The translations under genes were made by a program, and so were the position numbers. From Eunapius fragilis (Eukaryota; Porifera; Demospongiae; Spongillida; Spongillidae), in assembly GCA_963681505.1 (NCBI GenBank), contig OY811972.1, positions 15,315,610-15,379,609 on the forward strand: a DNA stretch of 64,000 nt. The letters are read 5' to 3'. Each line of letters starts with the position of its first letter. Within the stretch, counting starts at the first letter, position 1. Of this stretch, positions 17,602-32,322 are shown piece by piece. The notes beneath the pieces are model-generated. The model was given only the letters and a program-made list of their open reading frames with translations, was not told the DNA's origin and did no database searches.

Positions 17602-20600
17602 TCATGCAGCAGCTTTGGGGGACACTCCTGATGTGCACACAGGGATGCCATACACAACAGGGGATGCCCCTATCAGATACTTCAACTTGCAGACGCTCCT
17701 TGCAGAAGATGCGTGCTTCAACAAGGGTTCCTCCGAACCAGAGAGCCAGTTGTCAAGCAGGCACTCGCAGTAGCGATCGATATCTTCATCAGTCACATCC
17801 CACAAGTTGGCGACAATAGCAGGGCTGTAAGTGGAGACACATATACAGCAATCTAAAGCTGCTTTTACAATATGACAATACATGGGGGGGGGGGGGCCGG
17901 AACAACAGAAAATACCCCCCCCCCCCCCCTCCTCCCCCAACCAACTGACACTGGTTGTGTGCTTTTAGTCTCATAATTGAATTGTTTAAGTCAGCACAGG
18001 TGAACAATATTAACACAATGCAGGGAAACTATTATAACCAAGTCAGTACCCGCAGGTGGACCTGCATTGACAATTCAATTATCACTAAGACCAAAAGAAT
18101 GCAATGAATGCCTGTTGGAACAAGGTGTTAATTCCGAGCCCTCTAGCGATAACCTTGCTACAGCATACAGGGTGTCCCACGAAAGAACACAACGCTTTTG
18201 AATGAAAATAATTTCTTATTAGGATTGTCAATTTTATGAATGTACAATAACCACGTTTAGACAAATACATTTATCATTAACAGTTCAAAAGAAAAAAATC
18301 AAATAGCTAGCAATTAACAATGATTAAGAAATAACATAATTCATAAACTGCAGAATAACCTTGATGAAAGCTTGAATTGCTGTTTTAATATTCAAAACAA
18401 CAAATCAAACTTTAAAATGCTACATGACCACTAACAATTTTAAGTAACTTTGATCTTTAAAACATAATCTAATACCAAGCCAGTACTTTTTACTTCATTT
18501 AATAAGTGGTGGTTATTAAAATTAAAATTGATTATCCCATAACAGCTTCATCTTCAAGGCGTTAAATACTTAGTAACATGACATCAGTGCTGGTCCACCA
18601 CATATTTAGATCTTGCGTAGTTTATCTCTAACTGTAATCTTGAATAACTTTGATAATAGAGGGCTTTGAATATTTCAATTTATGCAGGTTTGATACAATT
18701 ACTTAACCACGTACAATAATTGTTAGTAAGTGGCTAACTAAAGCAACTTATTCAAGCAGTTAACAGCGATATTAAAAGCGTTGCGTACTTTCGTTGGCAC
18801 CCTATATGATGCCCCCAACACAAATTATTAGTGATCTCATAGGCTAGACGTTGGAATAGAACACAAGTCTATTCCAACGTCACATATGGCCACTGGCACT
18901 GGTGCAACAGTTCAGCTAACGTCACGGTTCATGCATGCTAACATAATGTTACGGACAAAAGGTCCACCTACCAGCCAGAGATGAGGTATTGCAACACAAC
19001 TCCACTGGGGTCAGCACTTCCATGAACCTGTGCACGTGTATACGCAATCACAGCCGTTAGTCCCACCCACTCACCCCTCTCTCCATTAGCCCACCCACTC
19101 ATCCCTCTCTCTGTTAGCCCCACCCACTCATCCCTCTCTCTGTTAGCCCCACCCACTCACCCCTCTCTCCATTAGTCCCCACCCACTCATCCCTCTCTCC
19201 ATTAGTCCCCACCCACTCATCCCTCTCTCCATTAGTCCCCACCCACTCACCCCTCTCTCCATTAGTCCCCACCCACTCACCCCTCTCTCCATTAGTCCCC
19301 ACCCACTCACCCCTCTCTCCATTAGTCCCCACCCACTCATCCCTCTCTCCATTAGTCCCCACCCACTCACCCCTCTCTCCATTAGCCCCACCCACTCACC
19401 CCTCTCTCCATTAGTCCCCCCCCCCCCCCTCCCCACTCACGGCCAGTCTCCCTGAGCTGCATCCCATCAGCACAGAGGCAGCCTTGCAGTGGACCAGGTG
19501 GAGCTGCTCTGTACTGAGGTACTTACCGCCACTACCGTGCCCACAGTAACTGAAGGGAGGGGAAGAGGGGGGGAAGAAGAGGGTGGGGTCAGTATGTAAA
19601 CGAGCCACGCCCACAAGGAAGTCACACCCTATGGCAGCCTTACATGTACAGCTGGTGTTGCTCCAGGGCTTCCTTCAACAGCTGATCGCTGGGCTCCTTT
19701 CCCACAACCCCCTCCCACCCGGGCTCCTTGGTGAACCACTCGAAGCACTTTTCGGTCTTCGGAAGGTTCTTCTCGGGATTGAGGACGTAGAAGGTGCTCA
19801 GAGGGTTAACCAGACCACACCAATCATGTCCCAGCTGTGTCCAAAAAATACCACATAAATAAATGTAACCTAATGATCTGCCAGATATCTCCTTCAGTCC
19901 ACCCCTATGTATACACACATACACTCACCATGTTCCCCCTCTACCCACTCACCATGTTTCCCTCCACCCACTGGTCACCATGTTCCCCTCCACCCACTCA
20001 CCATGTTCCCCTCCACCCCACTCACCATGTCCCCCTCCACCCACTCACCATGTTCCCCTCCACCCACTCACCACGTTCCCCTCCACCCACTCACCATGTT
20101 TCCCCTCCACCCACTCACCATGTTTCCCTCCACCCACTCACCATGTTTCCCCTCCACCCACTCACCATGTTACCCCTCCACCCACTCACCATGTTCCTAT
20201 GTGCCACCACAAAGGCCAGGGAGGGCATTCTGCACACGGCACGTTCCCTCAGAACAGGGATGCTCTCCCATGGCAGGCACTGGAGGGTGTGGCCTGCCAC
20301 CAGGACCATCGGGTGGTGGGAGGGTGTGGCCTCTGATGGGAGGAGCTCTTCTATTGTAGAGTATGCCTGACGGCAAGGGAGGAGTAGGGAGAGACGTGCA
20401 TCTATGTATGTGTGGGCATGTACAGCAGTGGTGCATGCATATACATGCACACCTCCATCGTTTGCACACCTCCACCATTTGCACACCTCCACCATTTGCC
20501 CACCTCCACCATTTGCACACACCTCCACCATTTGCACACCTCCACCATTTGCACACCTCCACCATTTGCCCACCTCCACCATTTGCACACCTCCACCATT

Positions 20601-22932
20601 TGCACACCTCCACCATTTGCATACCTCCACCATTTGCCCACCTCCACCATTTGCACACCTCCACCATTTGCACACCTCCACCATTTGCACACCTTCACCA
20701 TTTGCACACCTCCACCATTTGCACACCTCCACCATTTGCACACCTCCACCATTTGCACACCTCCACCATTTGCACACCTCCACCATTTGCACACCTCCAC
20801 CATTTGCACACCCCTCCTCCATTTGCACACCTCCACCATTTGCACACCTCCACCATTTGCCCACCTCCACCATTTGCACACACCTCCACCATTTGCACAC
20901 CTCCACCATTTGCACACCTCCACCATTTGCACACCTCCACCATTTGCACACCTCCACCATTTGCACACCTCCACCATTTGCACACCTCCACCATTTGCAC
21001 ACCTCCACCATTTGCACACCTCCACCATTTGCACACCCTCCTCCATTTGCACACCTCCACCATTTGCACACCTCCACCATTTGCCCACCTCCACCATTTG
21101 CACACACCTCCACCATTTGCACACCTCCACCATTTGCACACCTCCACCATTTGCACACCTCCACCACTTGTACACCTCCACCATTTGCACACCTCCACCA
21201 TTTGCACACCCCACCATTTGCACACCTCCACCATTTGCACACCCCACCATTTGCACACCTCCACCATTTGCACACCTCCACCATTTGCACACCCCACCAT
21301 TTGCACACCTCCACCATTTGCACACCTCCACCATTTGCACACCTCCACCATTTGCACACCTCCACCATTTGCACACCCCACCATTTGCACACCTCCACCA
21401 TTTGCACACCTCCACCATTTGCACACCCCACCATTTGCACACCTCCACCATTTGCACACCCCACCATTTGCACACCTCCACCATTTGCACACCCCACCAT
21501 TTGCACACCTCCACCATTTGCACACCTCCACCATTTGCATACCTCCACCATTTGTACACCCCACCATTTGCACACCTCCACCATTTGCACACCTCCACCA
21601 TTTGCACACCCCACCATTTGCACACCTCCACCATTTGCACACCCCACCATTTGCACACCTCCACCATTTGCACACCCCACCATTTGCACACCTCCACCAT
21701 TTGCACACCTCCACCATTTGCACACCTCCACCATTTGTACCTGCTTCCTCTGTGCGGCTGTCAGTGGGTCGTCAGCCACCTCCCCTAGCACAGCCACCTC
21801 CCCTAGCAGCGAGCACACCTCCTCCTGGGACAGGCAGCCCCAGGTCTCTACCAGAAGCTCCACCCACTTCCTGTCCACACCCTGCTTGAGTTGCTCGCAC
21901 ACCCGTTCCACCACGTGTGTCCTCTCATCAGAGGACTTCCCCACCAGCAGACACTTCCAGTGACCCAGCCAGACATCCTCCAGGTCACCACAGAGTGTCT
22001 GAGTGAAAGTATAGAACAAAAACAAGTACATACTTTTTAGAACACACAAATACTACGTACACATACATACACAAACACACACTCACACACAATCACACGC
22101 ATACACACACATACTGACCCTCACACACACACACTGACCCTCACACACACACACACTGACCCTCACACACACACATACACACACACACTGACCCTCACAC
22201 ACACACACACTGACCCTCACACACACACATACTGACCCTCACACTCACACTGACCCTCACACACACACAAATACACACACACACACACACTGACCCTCAC
22301 ACACAGACACACTGACCCTCACACACACACATACACACACACACTCTCCCTCACACATACACTGACCCTCACACACACACACACACCCTCACACACACAC
22401 AGACCCTCACACATACACTGACCCTCACACACACACACACACCCTCACACACACACACAGACCCTCACACACACACACACTGACCCTCACACACACACTG
22501 ACCCTCACACACACACACTGACCCTCACACACACACACACACACACACTGACCCTCACACACACACACACTGACCCTCACACACACACATACTGACCCTC
22601 ACACTCACACTGACCCTCACACTCACACTGACCCTCACACACACACAAATACACACACACACACACACTGACCCTCACACACAGACACACTGACCCTCAC
22701 ACACACACATACACACACACACTGACCCTCACACATACACTGACCCTCACACACACACACACACCCTCACACACACACACACAGACCCTCACACACACAC
22801 ACACACTGACCCTCACACACACACTGACCCTCACACACACACACACTGACCCTCACACACACACACTGACCCTCACACACACACACATACACACACACAC
22901 TGACCCTCACACACACACACACACACACTGAC

Positions 22933-22998
<66 letters not shown>

Positions 22999-25277
22999 CC
23001 AGACTGCTGTCCAGCTCTCTGCGCACTGCCCACCACTTCTTCTTGTCCTTGATTGTCAGGCTGTCCTTGGATGACATCATGCACTGTTGGTGGTCCCCTG
23101 GAATGTTCTGTAAGGTGGGAGGAGAAGGAGGAGAGGGGGGTGAGAGACATGTGTCACCTTCAGTACAATGTGTCATAGTAGTATGCATACATCAATTGAC
23201 CACACCACACCTGTTATAATGTAACTATCAAAACATATCTTGGTTGCTACCTTCTCTGTAACTATCCTTCCCCTGGCCACACCCCTGACCCCACCTCCTA
23301 TCCTGTGTAGGTGCCATTAACACATGTACCCCACCCCCCACCCCTCGCACACGCACACACACACACCCACACACACACACACACACACTTAGCCTGACCT
23401 GCTCTGGTAGACTTATCCTCACCATCAGAGGGTCCCTCTCCCTCCCCGCCCTCATCACCATCAGATAACGCTCGCTGGGGTCCACCCCCAGGGTGCACAG
23501 GGTCCAGGTGGGGGGCAGGCTGTCCAGGGCCTGTCGGGTGTAGCCCACGGGGGGCATGGTGGCGTGCAACGGAGGGAACGACTGCCGGGCCCTCCATGTG
23601 GGCGTGGCACTGGCCTGGCCGCTGCACTGAAGAGTGGCGATGACGTCCCGCGTGTCGTTCCTGTCACGTGACCTGTGTGGGGATGGGGGTGTGGAGGGAC
23701 AAGGTATCGCCAGTAAAACTTGGTCAACTTTTTTGACATATAAAATTATAACAATCGCAGTCCGAAGGACTGCGATTGTTAGAGGAAAAAAATTAGGGCT
23801 TAGGGCAGGGTAGGGGGGGGCCGAAGGCCCGCTATGCCCTCCAACTTTTCACCCGCTCTCCGAATCTGCCCTCAAATTGCACCCGTCCCTCCCTCCCGAC
23901 ACTCTTCATTGACACTCACTAACCTCCGTCCCCTTAATAAACGCCATCTTGGCTGTACCCAGGCGCCTTCGGCCCCACATTGTAGCCTCTATGAGGCAGA
24001 GCATGTGCATCATGTGCCAGGCCTTCATGACGATGTGGACTTTGTGGGAGGGGTTCCCCTTACCTCAGCTTATGTCCAATGCTATACACCCACACACCCA
24101 CCCCCTCCCCTCACCTCAACTTATGTCCAATGCTATACACCCACACACCCACCCCCTCCCCTCACCTCAGCTTATGTCCAATGCTATACACCCACACACC
24201 CACCCCCTCCCCTCCCCTCAGCTTATGTCCAATGCTATACACCCACACACCCACCCCCTCCCCTCCCCTCAGCTTATGTCCAATGCTATACACCCACACA
24301 CCCACCCCCTCCCCTTACCTCAGCTTATGTCCAATGCTATACATGGCCTGACAGGTGAGGGTGAGCTGCATGCCCAGAGACAGGAAGTGCCCGGCCAAGA
24401 GGGGCGAGGCCTCGGGCACGGAGGACCCCAGCGAGAGGCACGTCTCCCTGAGGAGGAGGACCGAGGAGCAAGGGAAGCAGAGCTGGAAGGCCATCAGAAA
24501 GTACTCCACCGCGTCGTCCTGCTTTGTTAGCTTCACCTTGGCCTTTGTCTCCCTCACAAACTCCACACACGTCCCGGCGGCGACGTAGAGGCGCGCCGCA
24601 TGCTCCCGGTAAGCGGGGGCCACGCACCGACCTGCCTGCTTCTTTACGTGCGCAAGGCACTGCCTGCAAAGGGTGAGACACTTGGCCACCTCCCCCGCCC
24701 TGCGGTGGGCCCGTGCCTGGAGGAGGGAGCCCTCCAGTTCGGCGCACAGGTGGGCCTGGGTACTGGAGAACCAGGGTAGGCCCTGACGGGTAGCGTCGCC
24801 ATCGCCGCCGGAACAGAGCCGAGAGAGGGCGGGGTCGAGCGCAGAGGCACAACCGGCGAGGAGGCGGGGCACATCTTGAGGGAGGGGGACGGGAGGAGGA
24901 GGAGGAGGGGGAGGTGGAGCTGACCCTCCCACCTCTGACTCCGCCTCTCCCAGTCGCAACGTGGCCATGAGCAGGTCGATGCACAGTTGGAAGTGGGTGG
25001 GGCAGGACTGGATCACCTTGAGGTAGGCGTCGATGGAGGAGTTTGGAGAGATGGCTGGGTCAAAGAGCTGCCCCGCCTGACAGATGAGCCTCCTGGCCAC
25101 GGGAAGGTTCCCCTTGACAACCGAGACCTCTGCCAGGATGAGATAGAAGGTGACTGCCCTGATGAGGGAGGAGAACGAGACCATCATGGTGCGTACACAC
25201 ACACACACACACATACACACACACACACACACAGGTGTACACCATACACCCGCACACACGCATAAGTGTATGTACAT

Positions 25278-25315
<38 letters not shown>

Positions 25316-28300
25316 TACACCATACACCTGCACACACCCACACAAGTACATACAATGTAACATACATATGTATGCATTCATAGATCTACATGCATGTACA
25401 CATGACAAAAAGAAAAGAAAACCAGTTATAACACACAGAATAATTGCATGCACACACACACATGCACACATACCCACTCACACACACATACATGTACTTG
25501 TGTACACACACATGCACACCCACATACATGTACTTGTGTACACACACATGCACACCCACACACCCACACCCACACACATACATGTACTTGTGTACACACA
25601 CATGCACACCCACACACCCACACACATACATGTACTTGTGTACACACACATGCACACCCACACACCCACACACACACACACACACACCCACACACACACA
25701 CCCACACACACACACACACACCAGTATCTCAGTGCCTTGCTCTTGGCCAACTTCAGCCCTTCCCTGCCGTAGTGGTAAGCCTCCCTCACCATCCCGCACG
25801 AACAGTGCAGCTCAGCGGCCATCTTGAGTCCCTCCAGCAGTCCCTCAAACACCTCCCACCCCCTCACTTCCACCGACGCTCTCTTCTGCGACTCCTCCCC
25901 CTTCCTGTGGGCGTCACCACTGACCACCCCTCGAAACAGCCGCAGTGCATCCATGGCAACCTCGAGAGGTGTGAGGGTGAAGTGAGGGTGGAGGAGGGTG
26001 GTGGGCGTGGCCTCGAGGTGGTCCAACACCTTCCCCGGGGTGAGGAGGGGGGTGGGGGCCCTGCGCTGGAGGAGGGAAGAGGCCAGCATCTTGGCCCTGG
26101 CCTGGACCATGTAGGAGGAGGGGTAGGTGGAGGTGAGGTGAGGGTGGGAAAGCACCTCCACCAAGAGTCCTCGACATCCGTCCAACTGATAGAGGGAGGG
26201 AGGGAGGGGTTAAATGGGGTGGGTGGCGGGCACAAGAGGTGTATGTACAGGGGTAGAGGCGTCATGATCAACTGAACCATTAGGATGACAAGGAAAGCTT
26301 CCAGTGAGCATCAATGACAACCAAGCAAACCTCGACATGGGAAGAAAGGGCTAACAGGTCAGGGTGTAGGGCAAGGCACAAAGGGTAATGAAAGTAACAA
26401 GGAACTGTGACAATTGAACGATAAGAATACAGCCACCTATTACTTAAGCAACTGAACATAAATACATACATGCAAGAGAGACTGGGCACCCAGATCACTG
26501 ATACCTCATCAGCACTAATACCCCAGGATACCAAAATAACTAGCATTAATAACCAAGGATACCTCCTCAGCATTAATAACCAGGGATAACTCCTCAGCAC
26601 TAATAACCAGGATGCCTTATCAGAACGAATAACCAGGGATAACTAATCAACTTTAATAACTAGCACCAATAACCAGTCAACAGTATTAATAACCGGGGAT
26701 AATACCTTGGACCCAATAACGAGCATTAATAACTGGGTAACCTCATCAGAAATAATAAGTGGCACATATAACTAGTGAACTCTCACCATCACTAATAACT
26801 AGCCCTAATAACCAGGAATACCTCGCCACCACTAATAACAAGCACCAATAATGGGATACATGCACAGCTCATTATACGTGTATCCAAATAAGGTCACAAA
26901 GTAGAACTGTTACCAGCAGTATCAGTTTAAGCTACATCTCAGAAGTATGCAACATTACATCTGCCATGATATAATCACCCAGTCTCACACCCCATTGCAT
27001 CATCAACACAAATAACTAGCCCTAATAACCAGCCACCACTAATAACTAGCACTAATAATGGGATACATGTACATGTATATCGCCACTACTAATAACTAGC
27101 ACTAATAAGCAAGGATACCTCGCCACCACTAATAACTAGCACTAATAAGCAGGGATACCTCACCACCACTAATAACTAGCACTAATAAGCAGAGATACCT
27201 CGCCACCACCAATAACTAGCACTAATAAGCAGGGATACCTCATCGTTGGTCAGTTTGATGGCAGCTAGGGACAGCTTGGTGTGCAGCATGGAAGCAGTGA
27301 GGGAGCGGAGTGCCTTTCCACAAGGGGGGGGAGAAGAGGAAGTGGGAGGAGCTTCAGAGGAGGTCTCCAGAGAGTCCAACAGCACTTCAGCAGGGACACC
27401 ACACCCACTAAGGAGGCGCGCCTTCATGGCCAGGGCGTTGTGGTAGTGTGCTTGCAGGTAGGCTCTGGGGAGTGCCTCGTACATCCGTACCAGTGCAGCG
27501 AGGGCCCTGATCGCTAAAAGGGGCTGTGCACACAGCTCAATACAGCACTGCTCCGCTGCATACACTCAGCAACAAATATTATCTTCCTCTCAAATATGTT
27601 TTAGCATAGATCATGACAGAAGCTTCCCCTCCCCTCCTCCTCCTCCATCCCCTGGGTTCCCGGCCACACCCCCCTCCCCGTGTGCCCCACTTACCCTATG
27701 GTGGACCACACACATGTAAGATGCCACCATCACCAGTTCAAATGTGGTCCTGTCCTGAGACAAGTCGCCATTCTTAAGGCTCTGAAATGGACACACAAAC
27801 ATAAACACACGTGTACATACATATGCACACACATATGCACACACATACACACACCCACACATGCACACACAACACACACACACACACAACACACACCAAT
27901 ATCATCACCCTTGCTCTGTGAAGACCAAATGCCACACCCCTTACCTGCATGGGTATTTGGGACAGGGTGTCCCAGTGGTTCACAGCCACTTCCAGACACC
28001 TCACCAGGGAGTCGGTGGAGACGAGTGCCTTCGCTTCCTCGGAGGTGAGACGCAGCTGGTCCTCCTCCCCCTCAGCTGTGCCGCCATCTTCGGAGGATGA
28101 TGGGAGTGAGGCAGGGGGTGGGTCACTTTGCCCACACCTAGAATACAGACCACAACACGTGTATGTACATGAATATGCACAACTCATCTGATACATGTAC
28201 AGGTCAGAATGTGGCAACTTGTCGTGTAGAGTAAACTAGCCCTCCCTCCATTTCCTCCTCCCCCTCCCCTTCCCTTCCCTCCCTCCTCCCCTTCCCTTCC

Positions 28301-29358
28301 TCCCCCTCCCTTCCTCCCCTCCCATCCCCTCCCTTCCACAGGTCTCTTCTCTTGCCGTTCTTACCTCTCCATCAACTGGTCATAGATGCACACTGACTTC
28401 CAAAAGTTCACAGTAGCCAGCTGGCCCACAAGGGCGTATCTATTTGATTTCTCTGACTTCTCCAAAGACTGCAGGATGCCTGCAATGTCTGTAAAGAAGT
28501 CTAACGAGTGCCTGGGCAACGAAAGAAGGAGGAGCACCATGGAGCGGGGAGGAGGAGCACCATGGAGCGGGGAGGAGGAGCACCATGGAGTGGGGAGGAG
28601 GAGCACCATGGGATGGGGAGGAGCACCATGGGGTGGGGAGGAGGAGCACCATGGGGTGGGGAGGAGGGGGTGGGGAGGAGGGGGTGGGGAGGAGGAGCAC
28701 CATGGGGTGGGGAGGAGGAGCACCATGGGGTGGGGGGGAGGAGCACCATGGGGTGGGGAGGAGGAGCACCATGGGGTGGGGAGGAGGAGCACCATGGGGT
28801 GGGGAGGAGGAGCACCATGGGGTGGGGAGGAGGAACACCATGGGGTGGGGGGGAGGAGCACCATGGGGTGGGGAGGAGGAGCACCAAGGGGTGGGGAGGA
28901 GGAGCACCATGGAGTGGGGAGAAGGAGCACCATGGGGTGGGGAGGAGGAGCACCATGGGGTGGGGAGGGGAGCACCAAGGGGTGGGGAGGAAGAACACCA
29001 TGGGGTGGGGAGGAGGAGCACCATGGGGTGGGGAGGAGGAGCACCATGGGGTGGGGAGGAGGAGCACCATGGGGTGGGGAGGAGGAGCACCATGGAGTGG
29101 GGAGGAGGAGCACCATGGAGTGGGGAGGAGGAGCACCATGGGGTGGGGAGGAGGAGCACCATGGGGTGGGGAGGAGGAGCACCATGGGGTGGGGAGGAGG
29201 AGCACCATGGGGTGGGGAGGAGGAGCACAATGGAGCAGGGAGGAGGTAGGAAGGTGGGGAATGAGGGAGGGTACACAAGTACACACAGGCGTGCTAACCT
29301 AACATACACACTTTTGCAACTCACACAATCATACACACACACACACACACAAACACAA

Positions 29359-29441
<83 letters not shown>

Positions 29442-32322
29442 GTCACCCGTCTTCCTGTTCAGGATAGCCTGCTCAGTAAGGATCCTTGTGCGGTCCAGCA
29501 CCCTCCCCTCACACCTGTACACCTCCAAGAGCTCCTCCACCACAAGCACCACTGCATCATCACACTCCACCTCCTTGTACTCCGCAAGCTCCACCTCCAG
29601 ACAAGATGACACGGTGGATAGGGGAACTCCCTTCAGAGGCTTCAGGGCTGACATGAAAGTCCTACAGTCGTATACAGAAATATGAACACTACACACACAC
29701 AACAACACATGCACACAACACACAACACTCACACACACACTCACACACAACACACACTCACACAACACACACACACACACAATGACACACACACACACTC
29801 ACACACACACACACACACTCACACAACACACACACAACACACACAATGACATACACACACACTCACACACACACTCACACACAACGCACAGACCACACAC
29901 ACACATTCACACACACAACACACACACACACACACACACTCACACACACTCACACACGCAACCTTACCTTCCCTCCACGTCCTTAACACCATCATCCAGG
30001 GCAGCAGCCCTCACCCTGGCCCACTGCGCCACCAGACCACACCTCCTCCGGGGGTCCTCCAGGACCCCTGCGGTGACAGCAAGCACCAGAGTGTCAAGAG
30101 CTTTGGCATAGAGAGAGACCTCTCTCAGGTAGCTAGCCAGCAGGCACTGCTTCTCTAGGAGGTTCACCTATGAGCATGCAGTGGGGGAGTTTGTGTTTGA
30201 ACGTTGACTGCACACAATATCAGCTTCATCACACCCCTACCACCTCCACCTCCCCCTCCCTCCTGCCATCTATCCCCTCCCTACCTCCATCATCTCCTCC
30301 TATCTCCACCATCCCTCCCTCCCACTCCCTACCTCCACCATCCGCTCCATCCCCCTCCCTACCTCCATCATCTCTCCTCCCCTGCCTACCTCCACCATCC
30401 CTCCCTCCCCCTCCTACCTCCATCATCTCCTACCTCCACCATCCCTCCCTCCCCCTCCTACCTCCACTATCCCCTCCCTCCCCCTCCCTACCTCCACCAT
30501 TCTTTCTTCCTTGCCACCACACCATATCCCCATCTCATCGCAGGCGAGGTCCAGCACGTGGATGGCTTCTCCACACACCCCACACCTGTGCAGCATCACT
30601 CCAAGGTTGTACGCACTGCACCCCAGCCAGCGGTGCTCCTCCTCCGGTATGCCACGCCCACATTGCCCCGCCTCCTCTAGAACCCTCCGAGACTCCTCGA
30701 GCAGCGGAAGACACAGGGAAGCCACATCAGCCAGGGGGTCGACGGGGGGGCGTGCGGAAGCACTACGTGGCAACTCTATCTCCTCGACATCTTCCCCCTC
30801 TTCATCCTCCCCCACCTCTTCCCCCTCCCCCTCTCCCTCTATCTTCTCCACGATGCGGCTGTCATTGGTAACTTGGAGCAGGTCGACTAACATCTCCTGG
30901 AGGATGTTGAGCAAGTAGAGCTTCCTACACTTGAGGGCCACCTCTGCCCCCTCCGCTGAACCACACCCTCCACCACCACTTTTGGCCTGGGCACCCGTCA
31001 GGAGCCTGGACCTGAGTTGCATGTGGGACTCAAAGAGAGCTCTCAGGAGGTCAAAGGTCGTCCTGGTGAGGGGTAGTGTCCCCGTCATCCCTCTCCTCCA
31101 ACCCCCGGCCTCCTGCCTCCTCTGCTCCAGGACAGAGACGAGCAGTTCTACGGCATCAGTGAGCCGTCCGACCGCATCGAGGTCGGCCATCTTGTCCCCG
31201 CTACTTACGGAGGACGCGACCCCCCGCACGGCCGAGCACAGGTCTTGGAGGGAGACAAGGTTAGGGCGTCCGAAAGACGAGGCACCACCATCTTGAGGGG
31301 TTCGGTGGTGGTGGTGGTGGAGGAGGGACAGGACGATCTCTGTAGTGTGCACAATGGCCGCAGCTGAGAGGCAAGGAGTGCAACAGAGGGGTTCCTGGCA
31401 TGGCCCCCCGCCGCCAACGGTGTGGGGATTTTGGAGGGACTTTGCAGTTTTCATGAGTCGCTCAGAGTCTTTGACACTCCCGACCATCCCCGAGACCAAG
31501 GAGAACCGAGCCAGGATCTCGACGTGCAGGCCGCGCGTCTTGCAGGGCAAGGGACTGCGGAGGGATCCGGAGGAGGCCAAGCGGGCCGCTAGGAGGGAGT
31601 GGAACCTGTGGCGGGCGCTGAGAGAGGTGGCCGTTCCCGCGGTGGCCTTGTGGAACCTGGTGTCGGCCTTGAGAAGCCTCGGGAGGATAAAGTCCGGCTG
31701 GAAGTCGGCCCGCGCGCCCGCCAAAAGCGCCACCCGCTTCATGTCGAGGCACAGCTCGGGGTCGGGCGACGCTCCCTCTTCGGCCTTCAGCGCAGCGTTC
31801 CAGAGGAGGTTGAACAACTGCTTGAGGAATTCGACTGTATCGGCTTCGACCGTCACCGAAGGGGAGTCCAGTCTCTCGAAACACAAGAGGCTGGCGTTCC
31901 TGCCTCGTTCGTACTGACCCACAGAGAAGCATTCCCTGGCGAAGTTGAAGAGCAGCTTTTCGAAAATGCGGTCGCCGCCGGACGTGGCCGGGGACACTTT
32001 CTTGAGGCAGTCGATGGCAATGGAGGCCGCGTCCAGCAGGTGAGAAGAGACGTGGTTGTCAGCTCCCCTGTGCTGGTCGATGCACTCCTTCAGGAGTTTG
32101 CGGGAAAACTTTGCGTACTTTCCTTCTTTTGTGTCTCGACCCCCGCCACATAGTACTGGTCCTAGGTATGCCTGTTAAGGCAAGGGGGATCGCAGTCAGA
32201 TGATGTAGCTGCTCATATTGAGAACGTACTAGAGATAGTCCACATACCTGGATGCTCGTGATTAGGTCCGCTGCGTCTCTGTTGACCGATTTGACGCATC
32301 TCAGAATACGGTCACCTTCCAT
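17602..32322 (-). CDS. ESPL1: Separase (cohesin-cleaving cysteine protease), ~19 exons
   Basis: Separase cuts the kleisin subunit of cohesin at anaphase onset. Exons, 5' to 3' on the minus strand: 32248-32322, 30492-32171, 29968-30167, 29440-29661, 28365-28511, 27945-28137, 27695-27781, 27239-27564, 25722-26185, 24319-25158, about 23924-24050 (uncertain), 23399-23672, 22997-23107, 21741-21998, 20190-20366, 19644-19834, 19441-19549, 18972-19027, 17602-17824. Apart from the exon 7/8 join and exon 11, all phases agree. The protein is about 1.9 k residues, close to animal separases. The N-terminal part is helical repeat-like, with an acidic patch ([11 protein letters not shown]). The C-terminal part carries [39 protein letters not shown] (catalytic His), [10 protein letters not shown] (catalytic Cys), [14 protein letters not shown] and [16 protein letters not shown]. 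The start is the first ATG and opens a clean exon. Introns hold large minisatellites (listed separately). A possible separase self-cleavage site was not identified. Confidence 0.93.
17880..17940. repeat. Facing poly(G) and poly(C) runs in the last separase intron
   Basis: About 13 G at 17883-17896 and about 15 C at 17917-17931 flank a short spacer, giving a potential G:C-rich hairpin. The stretch lies in the final separase intron (17825-18971). Confidence 0.7.
17941..18960. other. AT-rich part of the last separase intron
   Basis: This is intronic sequence with no coding signal. The only structured feature seen is a perfect 13-bp-arm hairpin at 18848-18880 (ACGTTGGAATAGA, 7-nt loop, complement). 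Confidence 0.6.
19062..19432. repeat. 30-bp minisatellite carrying donor-like sequence (separase intron 17)
   Basis: There are about twelve units of 30 bp; on the minus strand each contains GTGAGTGGG or ATGAGTGGG followed by ACTAATGGAGAGAGGGG. The true 5' splice site of exon 17 reads GGCC|GTGAGTGGGG, so the unit includes a donor-like core. Because 30 is a multiple of three, the array stays open in several frames and mimics a protein repeat. It is not coding. Confidence 0.85.
19441..19834 (-). other. ESPL1: Separase catalytic exons (His and Cys dyad)
   Basis: Exon 16 (19644-19834) ends in LY plus two bases of a split codon. Exon 17 (19441-19549) completes it and continues [11 protein letters not shown], so the conserved LYIYCGHGSG strand-turn of clan CD proteases spans the junction. 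The His of GHG is the general base. The Cys of MGCSSG, 31 residues later, is the nucleophile. Both are intact, so the enzyme should be active. The intron between them is about 94 bp. Confidence 0.9.
19926..20189. repeat. ~23-bp minisatellite replicating the exon 15 splice donor
   Basis: On the minus strand exon 15 ends AACATG|GTGAGTGGGTGGAG. The following intron is made of about eleven near-copies of exactly this junction (AACATGGTGAGTGGGTGGAGG, with one- or two-base length variation). Every copy contains the last six exonic bases and a strong GTGAGT donor. Confidence 0.9.
20452..21740. repeat. 17-bp minisatellite (separase intron 14), ~1.3 kb
   Basis: About 76 units of CACACCTCCACCATTTG, with 16-bp variants (CACACCCCACCATTTG) mainly in the distal half. 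On the minus strand the intron begins GTACAAATGGTGGAGG, which is itself a diverged unit (GTGCAAATGGTGGAGG). The array therefore starts at the splice donor. It reads open in all frames on both strands because 17 is not a multiple of three and the unit lacks stops. The resulting 340-640-residue open frames are artefacts. Confidence 0.92.
22058..22996. repeat. CA microsatellite/minisatellite filling separase intron 13
   Basis: This array of about 940 bp has the form (CA)n TGACCCT, with variable CA number, and a pure CA run at 22934-22996. On the minus strand exon 13 ends CTGGAG|GTGTGTGT, so the splice donor is the first GT of the repeat. Long internal segments are duplicated (about 22200-22480 resembles 22560-22840). 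Confidence 0.9.
23750..23830. other. Two consecutive perfect hairpins with GAA loops (intron)
   Basis: AACAATCGCAGTCC (23750-23763), loop GAA, and its exact complement (23767-23780) form a 14-bp stem. About 37 bp later GGGCC, loop GAA, GGCCC (23818-23830) forms a second. Both lie in the separase intron between the exon at 23399-23672 and exon 11. Confidence 0.7.
24061..24318. repeat. ~57-bp tandem copies of an exon end plus splice donor
   Basis: Exon 10 of separase ends (minus strand) ATAGCATTGGACATAAGCTGAG|GTAAGGGG. The next 250 bp contain five further copies of about 24 exonic bases plus the start of the intron, separated by GGGGTGGGTGTGTGGGTGT. The donor reads GTAAGG in the outermost copies, GTGAGG in two and GGGAGG (dead) in two. 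Confidence 0.88.
25195..25721. repeat. CA/TG microsatellite in separase intron 9
   Basis: The CA-rich arrays include a ~50-bp repeated module ('acatacatgtacttgtgtacac', four copies at 25485-25650). On the minus strand exon 9 ends TACTG|GTGTGTG, so the donor again is the first GT of the repeat. Confidence 0.88.
26480..27238. repeat. ~40-bp degenerate tandem repeat with donor copies (separase intron 8)
   Basis: On the minus strand exon 8 ends GATGAG|GTATCCCTGC. The intron then repeats GCGAGGTATCCCTGCTTATT followed by AGTGCTAGTTATTAGTGGTG at 27199, 27159 and 27119, and in progressively diverged form back to about 26500. Each fresh copy keeps GAG|GTATCC. The plus strand appears as repeated 'actaataactagc' and 'aataaccagggata' motifs. 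Confidence 0.85.
28537..29235. repeat. 23-bp minisatellite (separase intron 4)
   Basis: About 30 units of GAGGAGCACCATGGGGTGGG plus three bases, with variants ACCATGGAG, ACCAAGGGG and short deletions. It fills the acceptor side of the intron between 28511 and 29440. It is open in all frames on both strands, producing false 260-450-residue open frames. Confidence 0.92.
29325..29439. repeat. CA/TG microsatellite abutting a splice donor
   Basis: (CA)n tract. On the minus strand exon 4 ends GGTGACAG|GTGTGTGTG, so the donor lies in the repeat. Confidence 0.88.
29685..29962. repeat. CA-rich microsatellite (separase intron 3)
   Basis: Interrupted CA repeat with 'acacaacacacac' and 'ctcacacacac' variants, occupying almost all of the intron between exons 3 and 4. 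Confidence 0.88.
30229..30491. repeat. Purine-rich tandem array of splice donor copies (separase intron 2)
   Basis: Exon 2 ends (minus strand) ATGGTGGAG|GTAGGGAGGGGG. The intron then repeats ATGGTGGAGGTAGGAGGGGG and shorter variants (ATGATGGAGGTAGGG) about eight to ten times. Most copies contain the intact exon-end/donor string GGAG|GTAGG. Confidence 0.87.

Follow-up and report, generated by a model that had tools for sequence, protein, structure and literature searches.

The tandem arrays that crowd the 5' splice sites of the separase gene in the sponge Eunapius fragilis are, at a probability that we put at about 70%, ordinary mini- and microsatellites of a tandem-repeat-rich genome, born at random in once-short introns and grown to make up most of the intron sequence. 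Repeats would arise at random places in introns that were then short and would, presumably in this order, grow until most of the intron was array, stopping where function forbids further growth. The acceptor side of an intron, with its branch point, pyrimidine tract and AG, requires some 20-40 nt. Those 20-40 nt would protect the acceptor side, whereas at the donor about six bases of the intron would suffice; a duplication that crosses the donor can be harmless where the first copy stays in place and the reading frame is right. As the donor forbids little and the acceptor much, growing arrays would reach the donor and occasionally take in the end of the exon but would seldom extend over the acceptor, such that selection rather than mutation would set the asymmetry between the two sides; and because an array that overlaps a donor copies that very place, it must show donor-like copies. 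If this reading is right, the gene illustrates clearly how the short introns of a sponge may gain length, with repeats filling the room not claimed by the acceptor and meeting the donor, and it carries a warning that donor-like repeats beside exons require no special process.

The window, meaning the whole stretch of 64,000 nt that was analysed, lies on contig 2 of a genome searched here as 218,937,333 bases in 24 contigs. The gene at its centre of interest is separase:

17602..32322, minus strand, separase gene, 18 exons, 1872 aa, from hand-joined exons and a match to PF03568

Joined by hand, the exons form one minus-strand open frame of 1872 aa (32322 to 17602), and residues 1504-1814 of the translation match the Peptidase_C50 profile (PF03568, E=6.4e-76, profile positions 53-395 of 395), placing the protein among those with a C50 catalytic domain. 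The translation also contains CGHGSG and MGCSS stretches, which we take to be the separase motif. A profile search of the whole genome with C50 returned three exon matches, all within this gene, and found no second separase copy. The exon borders were called from the sequence, and the hand model was built with the nine exon ends named by the first-pass annotation already known; all nine are exon ends in it. A gene finder, itself trained partly on separase, reproduced all nine in one run and eight of the nine (not 21741) in another. The borders of intron 7 are uncertain, as the hand model has 27695/27550 and the gene finder 27714/27506, and TRF found no array in that intron.

TRF arrays are present in 13 of the 17 separase introns and cover 60% of the intron bases. 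In 7 of the 17 introns they touch the donor, and 10 introns have an array no more than 10 nt from it, as compared with none of 17 for the acceptor at that distance. The arrays and tracts nearest the splice sites are as follows:

24055..24343, minus strand, intron 10 array, 51-bp unit, spanning the donor at 24319/24318 and 25 exonic bases
19922..20197, minus strand, intron 14 array, 23-24-bp unit, spanning the donor at 20190/20189 and 8 exonic bases
30273..30500, minus strand, intron 2 array, irregular unit, spanning the donor at 30492/30491 and 9 exonic bases
27080..27241, minus strand, intron 8 array, 40-bp unit, spanning the donor at 27239/27238 and only 3 exonic bases (GAG)
20446..21737, minus strand, intron 13 array, 17-bp unit in 76 copies, beginning 3 nt past the exon end at 21741 and stopping 79 nt short of the acceptor
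19057..19423, minus strand, intron 16 array, 30-bp unit with GTGAGTGGG, beginning 17 nt into the intron (exon end 19441) and stopping 29 nt short of the acceptor
22059..22996, minus strand, intron 12 GT-rich array, the donor being its first GT (exon end 22997)
25447..25721, minus strand, intron 9 GT-rich array, the donor being its first GT (exon end 25722)
29322..29439, minus strand, intron 4 (GT)n tract, the donor being its first GT (exon end 29440)
28527..29246, minus strand, intron 4 second array, 23-bp unit, stopping 15 nt short of the acceptor (next exon from 28511)
29686..29957, minus strand, intron 3 GT-rich tract, beginning 10 nt into the intron
23348..23388, minus strand, intron 11 GT tract, beginning 10 nt into the intron

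The first-pass annotation had grouped nine of these introns under arrays built from their own 5' splice sites, a description that is solid for introns 10, 14 and 2 and slight or absent in the other six. In intron 10 the 25-nt exon end occurs, in aligned copies, six times at a 51-nt step including the true one; four of the five further copies are exact and one has a single base changed, and both the true donor and the last copy read GTAAGG, with two of the four copies between them lacking the GT. Intron 14 holds 11 ACATG/GTGA sites and intron 2 holds 8 TGGAG/GTA sites, the true donor included in each case. Copies of the last 8 exon bases at no more than one mismatch number 9, 5 and 11 in introns 2, 10 and 14, and introns 5 and 11 have one chance-like copy each; for the opening 8 bases of the exon that follows, no such copy is present in any of the 17 introns. 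Intron 8 had been counted as a fourth case of an exon end plus GT within the repeat unit. The exonic part of the array is 25 nt long in intron 10, 9 nt in intron 2 and 8 nt in intron 14, and comes down to 3 nt in intron 8, where the 20-nt border word has no further copy at up to 4 mismatches. The unit of intron 16 does hold the donor-like core GTGAGTGGG attributed to it, in an array that begins 17 nt into the intron, and the intron 13 array, said to begin at the donor, begins 3 nt past the exon end and not exactly there. TRF reports tandem repeats with units of 51, 40, 30, 23 and 17 bp in introns 10, 8, 16, 14 and 13, respectively, which are minisatellites in the sense of unit copies arranged head-to-tail with a unit length of about 10-100 bp. 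Introns 12, 9 and 4 have microsatellite-like GT-rich tracts at the donor and no minisatellite there: the donor is the first GT of the tract, as had been noted, and no border is copied. Intron 17 (17825-18971, 1147 nt) has no TRF array; the short inverted repeat that it contains, ACGTTGGAATAGA ... TCTATTCCAACGT, may be what is left of a mobile element.

The units appear to be local, in agreement with the earlier proposal that no single satellite had spread through the gene. In whole-genome searches, which may miss copies, the intron 10 unit gave 5 matches, all in its own array, and the intron 14 unit gave 5 matches in its own array and 5 more, with 80-82% identity, at two loci elsewhere. Doubling the donor-like core into an exact 18-nt query gave 0 matches in the genome, an uninformative result.

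Separase was compared with a sample of other introns of the same genome, composed of twenty-five 10-kb stretches (20 taken at the 2.0-Mb position in contigs 1-20, and 5 others), five stretches with myosin heads and the rest of the window. The myosin stretches, which represent 5 of about twelve such genes, were found by Pfam and their exons were guided by Pfam matches. Exons elsewhere were called by a small custom gene finder trained on the sample, which recovers most separase exons and was partly trained on them; a version that trained itself without a filter drifted to tiny exons and was replaced. A looser set was obtained by removing one-exon genes, genes with a summed coding score below 40 (myosin excepted) and introns shorter than 40 nt. 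Introns passing this filter came from 12 of the 25 stretches, none of them among the five later ones, and at least two of the 12 (L007 and L021) resemble retroelement reading frames by eye. The set comprises 161 introns (17 separase, 54 myosin and 90 other), with all borders outside separase being predicted.

Arrays occupy 52% of intron bases in the five myosin stretches and 19% in the other sampled introns. They lie within 10 nt of the donor and acceptor, respectively, in 10 and 0 separase introns, 11 and 8 myosin introns and 4 and 5 of the others, and in myosin introns, which carry a similar array load, proximity to the donor is significantly rarer than in separase (11 of 54 against 10 of 17, P=0.005). 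Outside separase the two ends are alike within 10 nt (15 of 144 donors and 13 of 144 acceptors, P=0.84) and within 20 nt (25 and 24 of 144), and differ at exact contact, with 9 of 144 donors against 1 of 144 acceptors. Under a strict exon filter the counts outside separase point in the same direction (within 10 nt, 4 of 59 donors as compared with 7 of 56 acceptors; at exact contact, 2 of 59 and 1 of 56). The scan of donors against acceptors, in a sample that is small at 144 introns and has predicted borders, thus leans towards refuting the process aimed at donors that had been proposed from the separase introns, the 9-to-1 ratio at exact contact being the part that leans the other way. In three of the myosin stretches (L031, L032 and L033) arrays, some of them CA-rich or C-rich, reach acceptors too.

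Blind placement of arrays strictly inside introns makes donor contact look far above chance in every set: 10 of 17 separase donors within 10 nt against 1.9 expected, with acceptors at 0 of 17, and outside separase 25 donors and 24 acceptors within 20 nt against 13.1 expected, an enrichment at both ends. This first null is not relied on, as it forbids arrays that straddle a border. In a seeding model we instead let each array start as one repeat unit anywhere in the collapsed intron, with no preference for the donor; seeds may straddle the donor and are barred from the last 20 or 30 nt, both rules being assumed. Pooled over the 103 array-bearing introns, the model predicts that the array touches the donor in 13.2-14.7 introns, as compared with 16 seen. 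For arrays no more than 10 nt from the donor the prediction is 20.7-22.9 (25 seen), and for arrays that extend into the exon it is 12.4-13.7 (9 seen). The pooled donor contact therefore requires no donor-seeking process, and a mechanism directed at donors is not supported.

Separase itself lies above the model: 7 arrays touch the donor where 2.2-2.7 are predicted (P 0.0005-0.005), 10 lie within 10 nt where 4.4-5.3 are predicted (P about 0.002), and 4 reach the exon where 2.0-2.3 are predicted (P 0.11-0.18). The gene is an outlier in arrays reaching the donor and less so in arrays taking in exon. Since separase was picked out as striking in the first place, its P value is not a fair one, and the excess over the model is explained only by this selection of a striking case. 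The seeding model also overpredicts exon overlap, with 9.9-10.9 introns expected to have at least 6 exonic bases in the array as compared with 5 seen, and with 7.4-8.2 myosin introns expected to include any exonic base as compared with 1 seen; selection against exon-including arrays would be needed to bring the two together. Once arrays are subtracted, array-bearing separase introns have a median of 87 nt, close to the short array-free introns of the gene (119 nt, n=4). This likeness is confined to separase and is lost in myosin (176 nt against 72 nt, n=11 array-free introns) and in the other introns (759 nt against 209 nt, n=43). The separase excess, the lead of donors at exact contact elsewhere, the overpredicted exon overlap and the residual lengths outside separase all count against ordinary repeat growth.

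The contrast between donors and acceptors is also apparent in the copying of the borders themselves. For each intron we took the border word, 20 nt made of 10 exonic and 10 intronic bases, and sought a further copy in the same intron at up to 4 mismatches. Border words recur for 9 of 161 donors (separase 4, myosin 1, other 4) and for 0 of 161 acceptors (P=0.003), and without separase for 5 of 144 donors and 0 of 144 acceptors (P=0.06); exon-internal control words recur in 0-2%. Four of the nine donor hits are weak, namely intron 12 (a self-match of the GT tract), L008 (one poor copy), L020 (purine-rich, with a doubtful border) and L030 (a doubtful exon). The five that we trust are introns 2, 10 and 14 of separase and one intron each in an actin-like and a dynein heavy chain-like gene, again against no acceptor (P=0.06). 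In the actin-like gene (L010:6190-6362) the array spans the donor and includes 9 exonic bases, with three copies 58-61 nt apart, and in the dynein-like gene (L013:1789-2438) it takes in CAG and the donor, giving 17 CAG/GTGACA sites including the true one. Donor-spanning tandem duplication is therefore recurrent, as had been suggested, being found in at least two genes other than separase.

It is very improbable that these overlaps are an artefact of wrong exon borders or of assembly error. Borders called from sequence may shift, tandem repeats are hard to assemble, and the published assembly odEunFrag1.1 is reported to have 802 gaps, according to PMC12616128, which also gives a QV of 60.4, the latter arguing against such an error. 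The separase exons nevertheless join into a single open frame whose C50 domain is matched over most of its length, and the actin-like and dynein-like proteins have strong Pfam matches.

A mutational explanation, of the kind proposed in the first-pass annotation, would make donors hot spots, where G-rich sense RNA immediately past the donor of a transcribed gene would favour R-loops or quadruplexes and repair slippage would amplify the exon-intron border. The G-over-C skew that such an R-loop model would need is real: in the first 100 nt of introns of at least 200 nt the sense strand has a mean skew of 0.77 in separase and 0.21 in each of the other two sets, and in all three sets it is higher where an array lies within 10 nt of the donor (0.80 against 0.65, 0.45 against 0.12 and 0.62 against 0.18). 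The position of separase above the seeding model and the excess of donors at exact contact elsewhere point the same way. The skew may, however, result from the arrays themselves, and in the 144 other introns donors have no lead over acceptors at either 10 or 20 nt. Across the genome AGGTRAG forms 18458 pairs with a spacing of 8-38 nt, as compared with 5866 for the reversed word, a ratio above that of single occurrences (85124 and 63244). We do not take these counts as proof, as they were made per pair, need not represent many arrays, and most of the 100 places listed come from one array (C1:2065627-2066682). Arrays are generally not composed of donor words. Of 200 arrays sampled, 10 hold AGGTRAG at least twice, which places this word at rank 13 among 420 permutations, but more complete donor words fare poorly: 2 arrays hold GGTRAGT at least twice (rank 324 among 420), and for AGGTRAGT the count is 0. 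Taken together, we judge a hot-spot mechanism unlikely. We are similarly doubtful of a version in which minisatellites of this sponge would arise preferentially at the donors of G-skewed genes, so that exon ends would be copied into introns again and again, with separase as a hot case and the 9-to-1 contact outside it as the genome-wide trace. Were donors indeed birth places of repeats, the structure of transcription would be tied to repeat birth, and a measurable source of new alternative donors would be at hand.

Several features of base composition and of donor-like words were seen alongside these counts. In myosin and other sampled introns of at least 200 nt the sense strand starts out G-rich, with a skew of 0.21 over the first 100 nt in both sets, and is C-rich or neutral ahead of the acceptor (-0.23 in myosin, -0.04 in the other introns). 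The array at C1:2065627-2066682 is long, has a 12-bp step and is full of AGGTGAG donor-like words among the matches listed, and is tied to no gene here; also among the matches listed, AGGTGAG recurs at regular steps, 78 and 234 nt among them, along more than 30 kb at about C1:168761-201025, in the manner of a large satellite.

Under ordinary repeat growth the first donor of each array is presumably the one used. An alternative is that the copies are used, the arrays forming a reservoir of alternative donors that makes splicing robust or adds short peptides. Scored with our own small matrix, sites that outscore the true donor or fall no more than 1 unit below it number 7, 13, 10, 3, 88, 10 and 19 in introns 2, 8, 9, 10, 13, 14 and 16, respectively, and the best array copy outscores the true donor in introns 8, 13 and 16 as well as in the actin-like and dynein-like genes, such that use of the first donor is not plain in those three introns. 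Copies of that strength that are in frame and free of stops number 1 in intron 2, 4 in intron 9, 2 in intron 14 (+24 and +48) and 2 in the dynein-like gene (+33 and +66), and at least 8 in intron 13, where read-through meets no in-frame stop. Introns 8 and 16, by contrast, have no in-frame, stop-free copy of that strength, and in intron 10 a stop stands at +1 once the first donor is passed, and every downstream copy takes it in, so that these copies cannot serve the frame. We regard a functional reservoir as improbable.

The human IFI6 gene (6-16, G1P3) bears on this point. Its minisatellite is reportedly the source of several splice donors (Turri, Cuin and Porter 1995, NAR 23:1854). According to a citing paper (PMC4526556), two downstream repeat units of IFI6 serve as donors, which favours the use of such copies and is a precedent for a pattern of which the first-pass annotation had known no description. 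As in the separase arrays, the IFI6 minisatellite lies at an exon-intron border and its units carry donors; arrays in separase likewise cross the border with donor-carrying copies, clearly in introns 10, 14 and 2 and slightly in intron 8. The two differ in that the IFI6 copies are reported as used donors, whereas the sponge copies are candidate donors predicted from the DNA, and in that IFI6 is one gene, whereas here several introns of separase and two other genes are involved. The kind of array is thus already known, and what is new is the occurrence of several cases in one sponge gene as further members of it.

Intronic minisatellites are linked with alternative splicing in the case of C. 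elegans CeRep25B, according to PMC4039745. CeRep25B resembles the present arrays in lying within introns beside splice choices, and differs in being one dispersed satellite, whereas the units here are local and some hold exon ends. Tandem duplication of border words is, in turn, the classic model of intron gain, with Hellsten 2011, the potato RdRp gene and fission-yeast 24-bp repeats as examples described in PMC4974935. By this model an AGGT-bearing exon piece would have been tandemly duplicated and the arrays would have made the introns. Copies of exon ends, most of them with GT, do lie inside introns 2, 10 and 14, the duplicated piece holds the exon-intron border word as the model has it, and the published fission-yeast case has repeated 24-bp exonic copies. 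In the model, however, the duplicated piece supplies both GT and acceptor AG of the new intron. The separase acceptors are not part of the arrays, none of the 17 having an array within 10 nt, and we consider such an origin highly unlikely. Among the titles and abstract openings that the literature search covered, no study of donor-spanning repeat units across a genome was found; one title, on human gene structure as modified by tandem repeats (PMC2812944), may be relevant.

Two arrays of the sampled stretches stand apart from the donor-side cases. At L011:5346-6152, in the middle of a predicted intron, there are about 38 copies of a 21-bp acceptor-like unit (CCCCTCCCCCTACAG/CCAT), and in L012 TRF array accounts for 82% of the 10-kb stretch, the palindrome GACTCCTGCAGGAGTC being part of its 32-bp unit.
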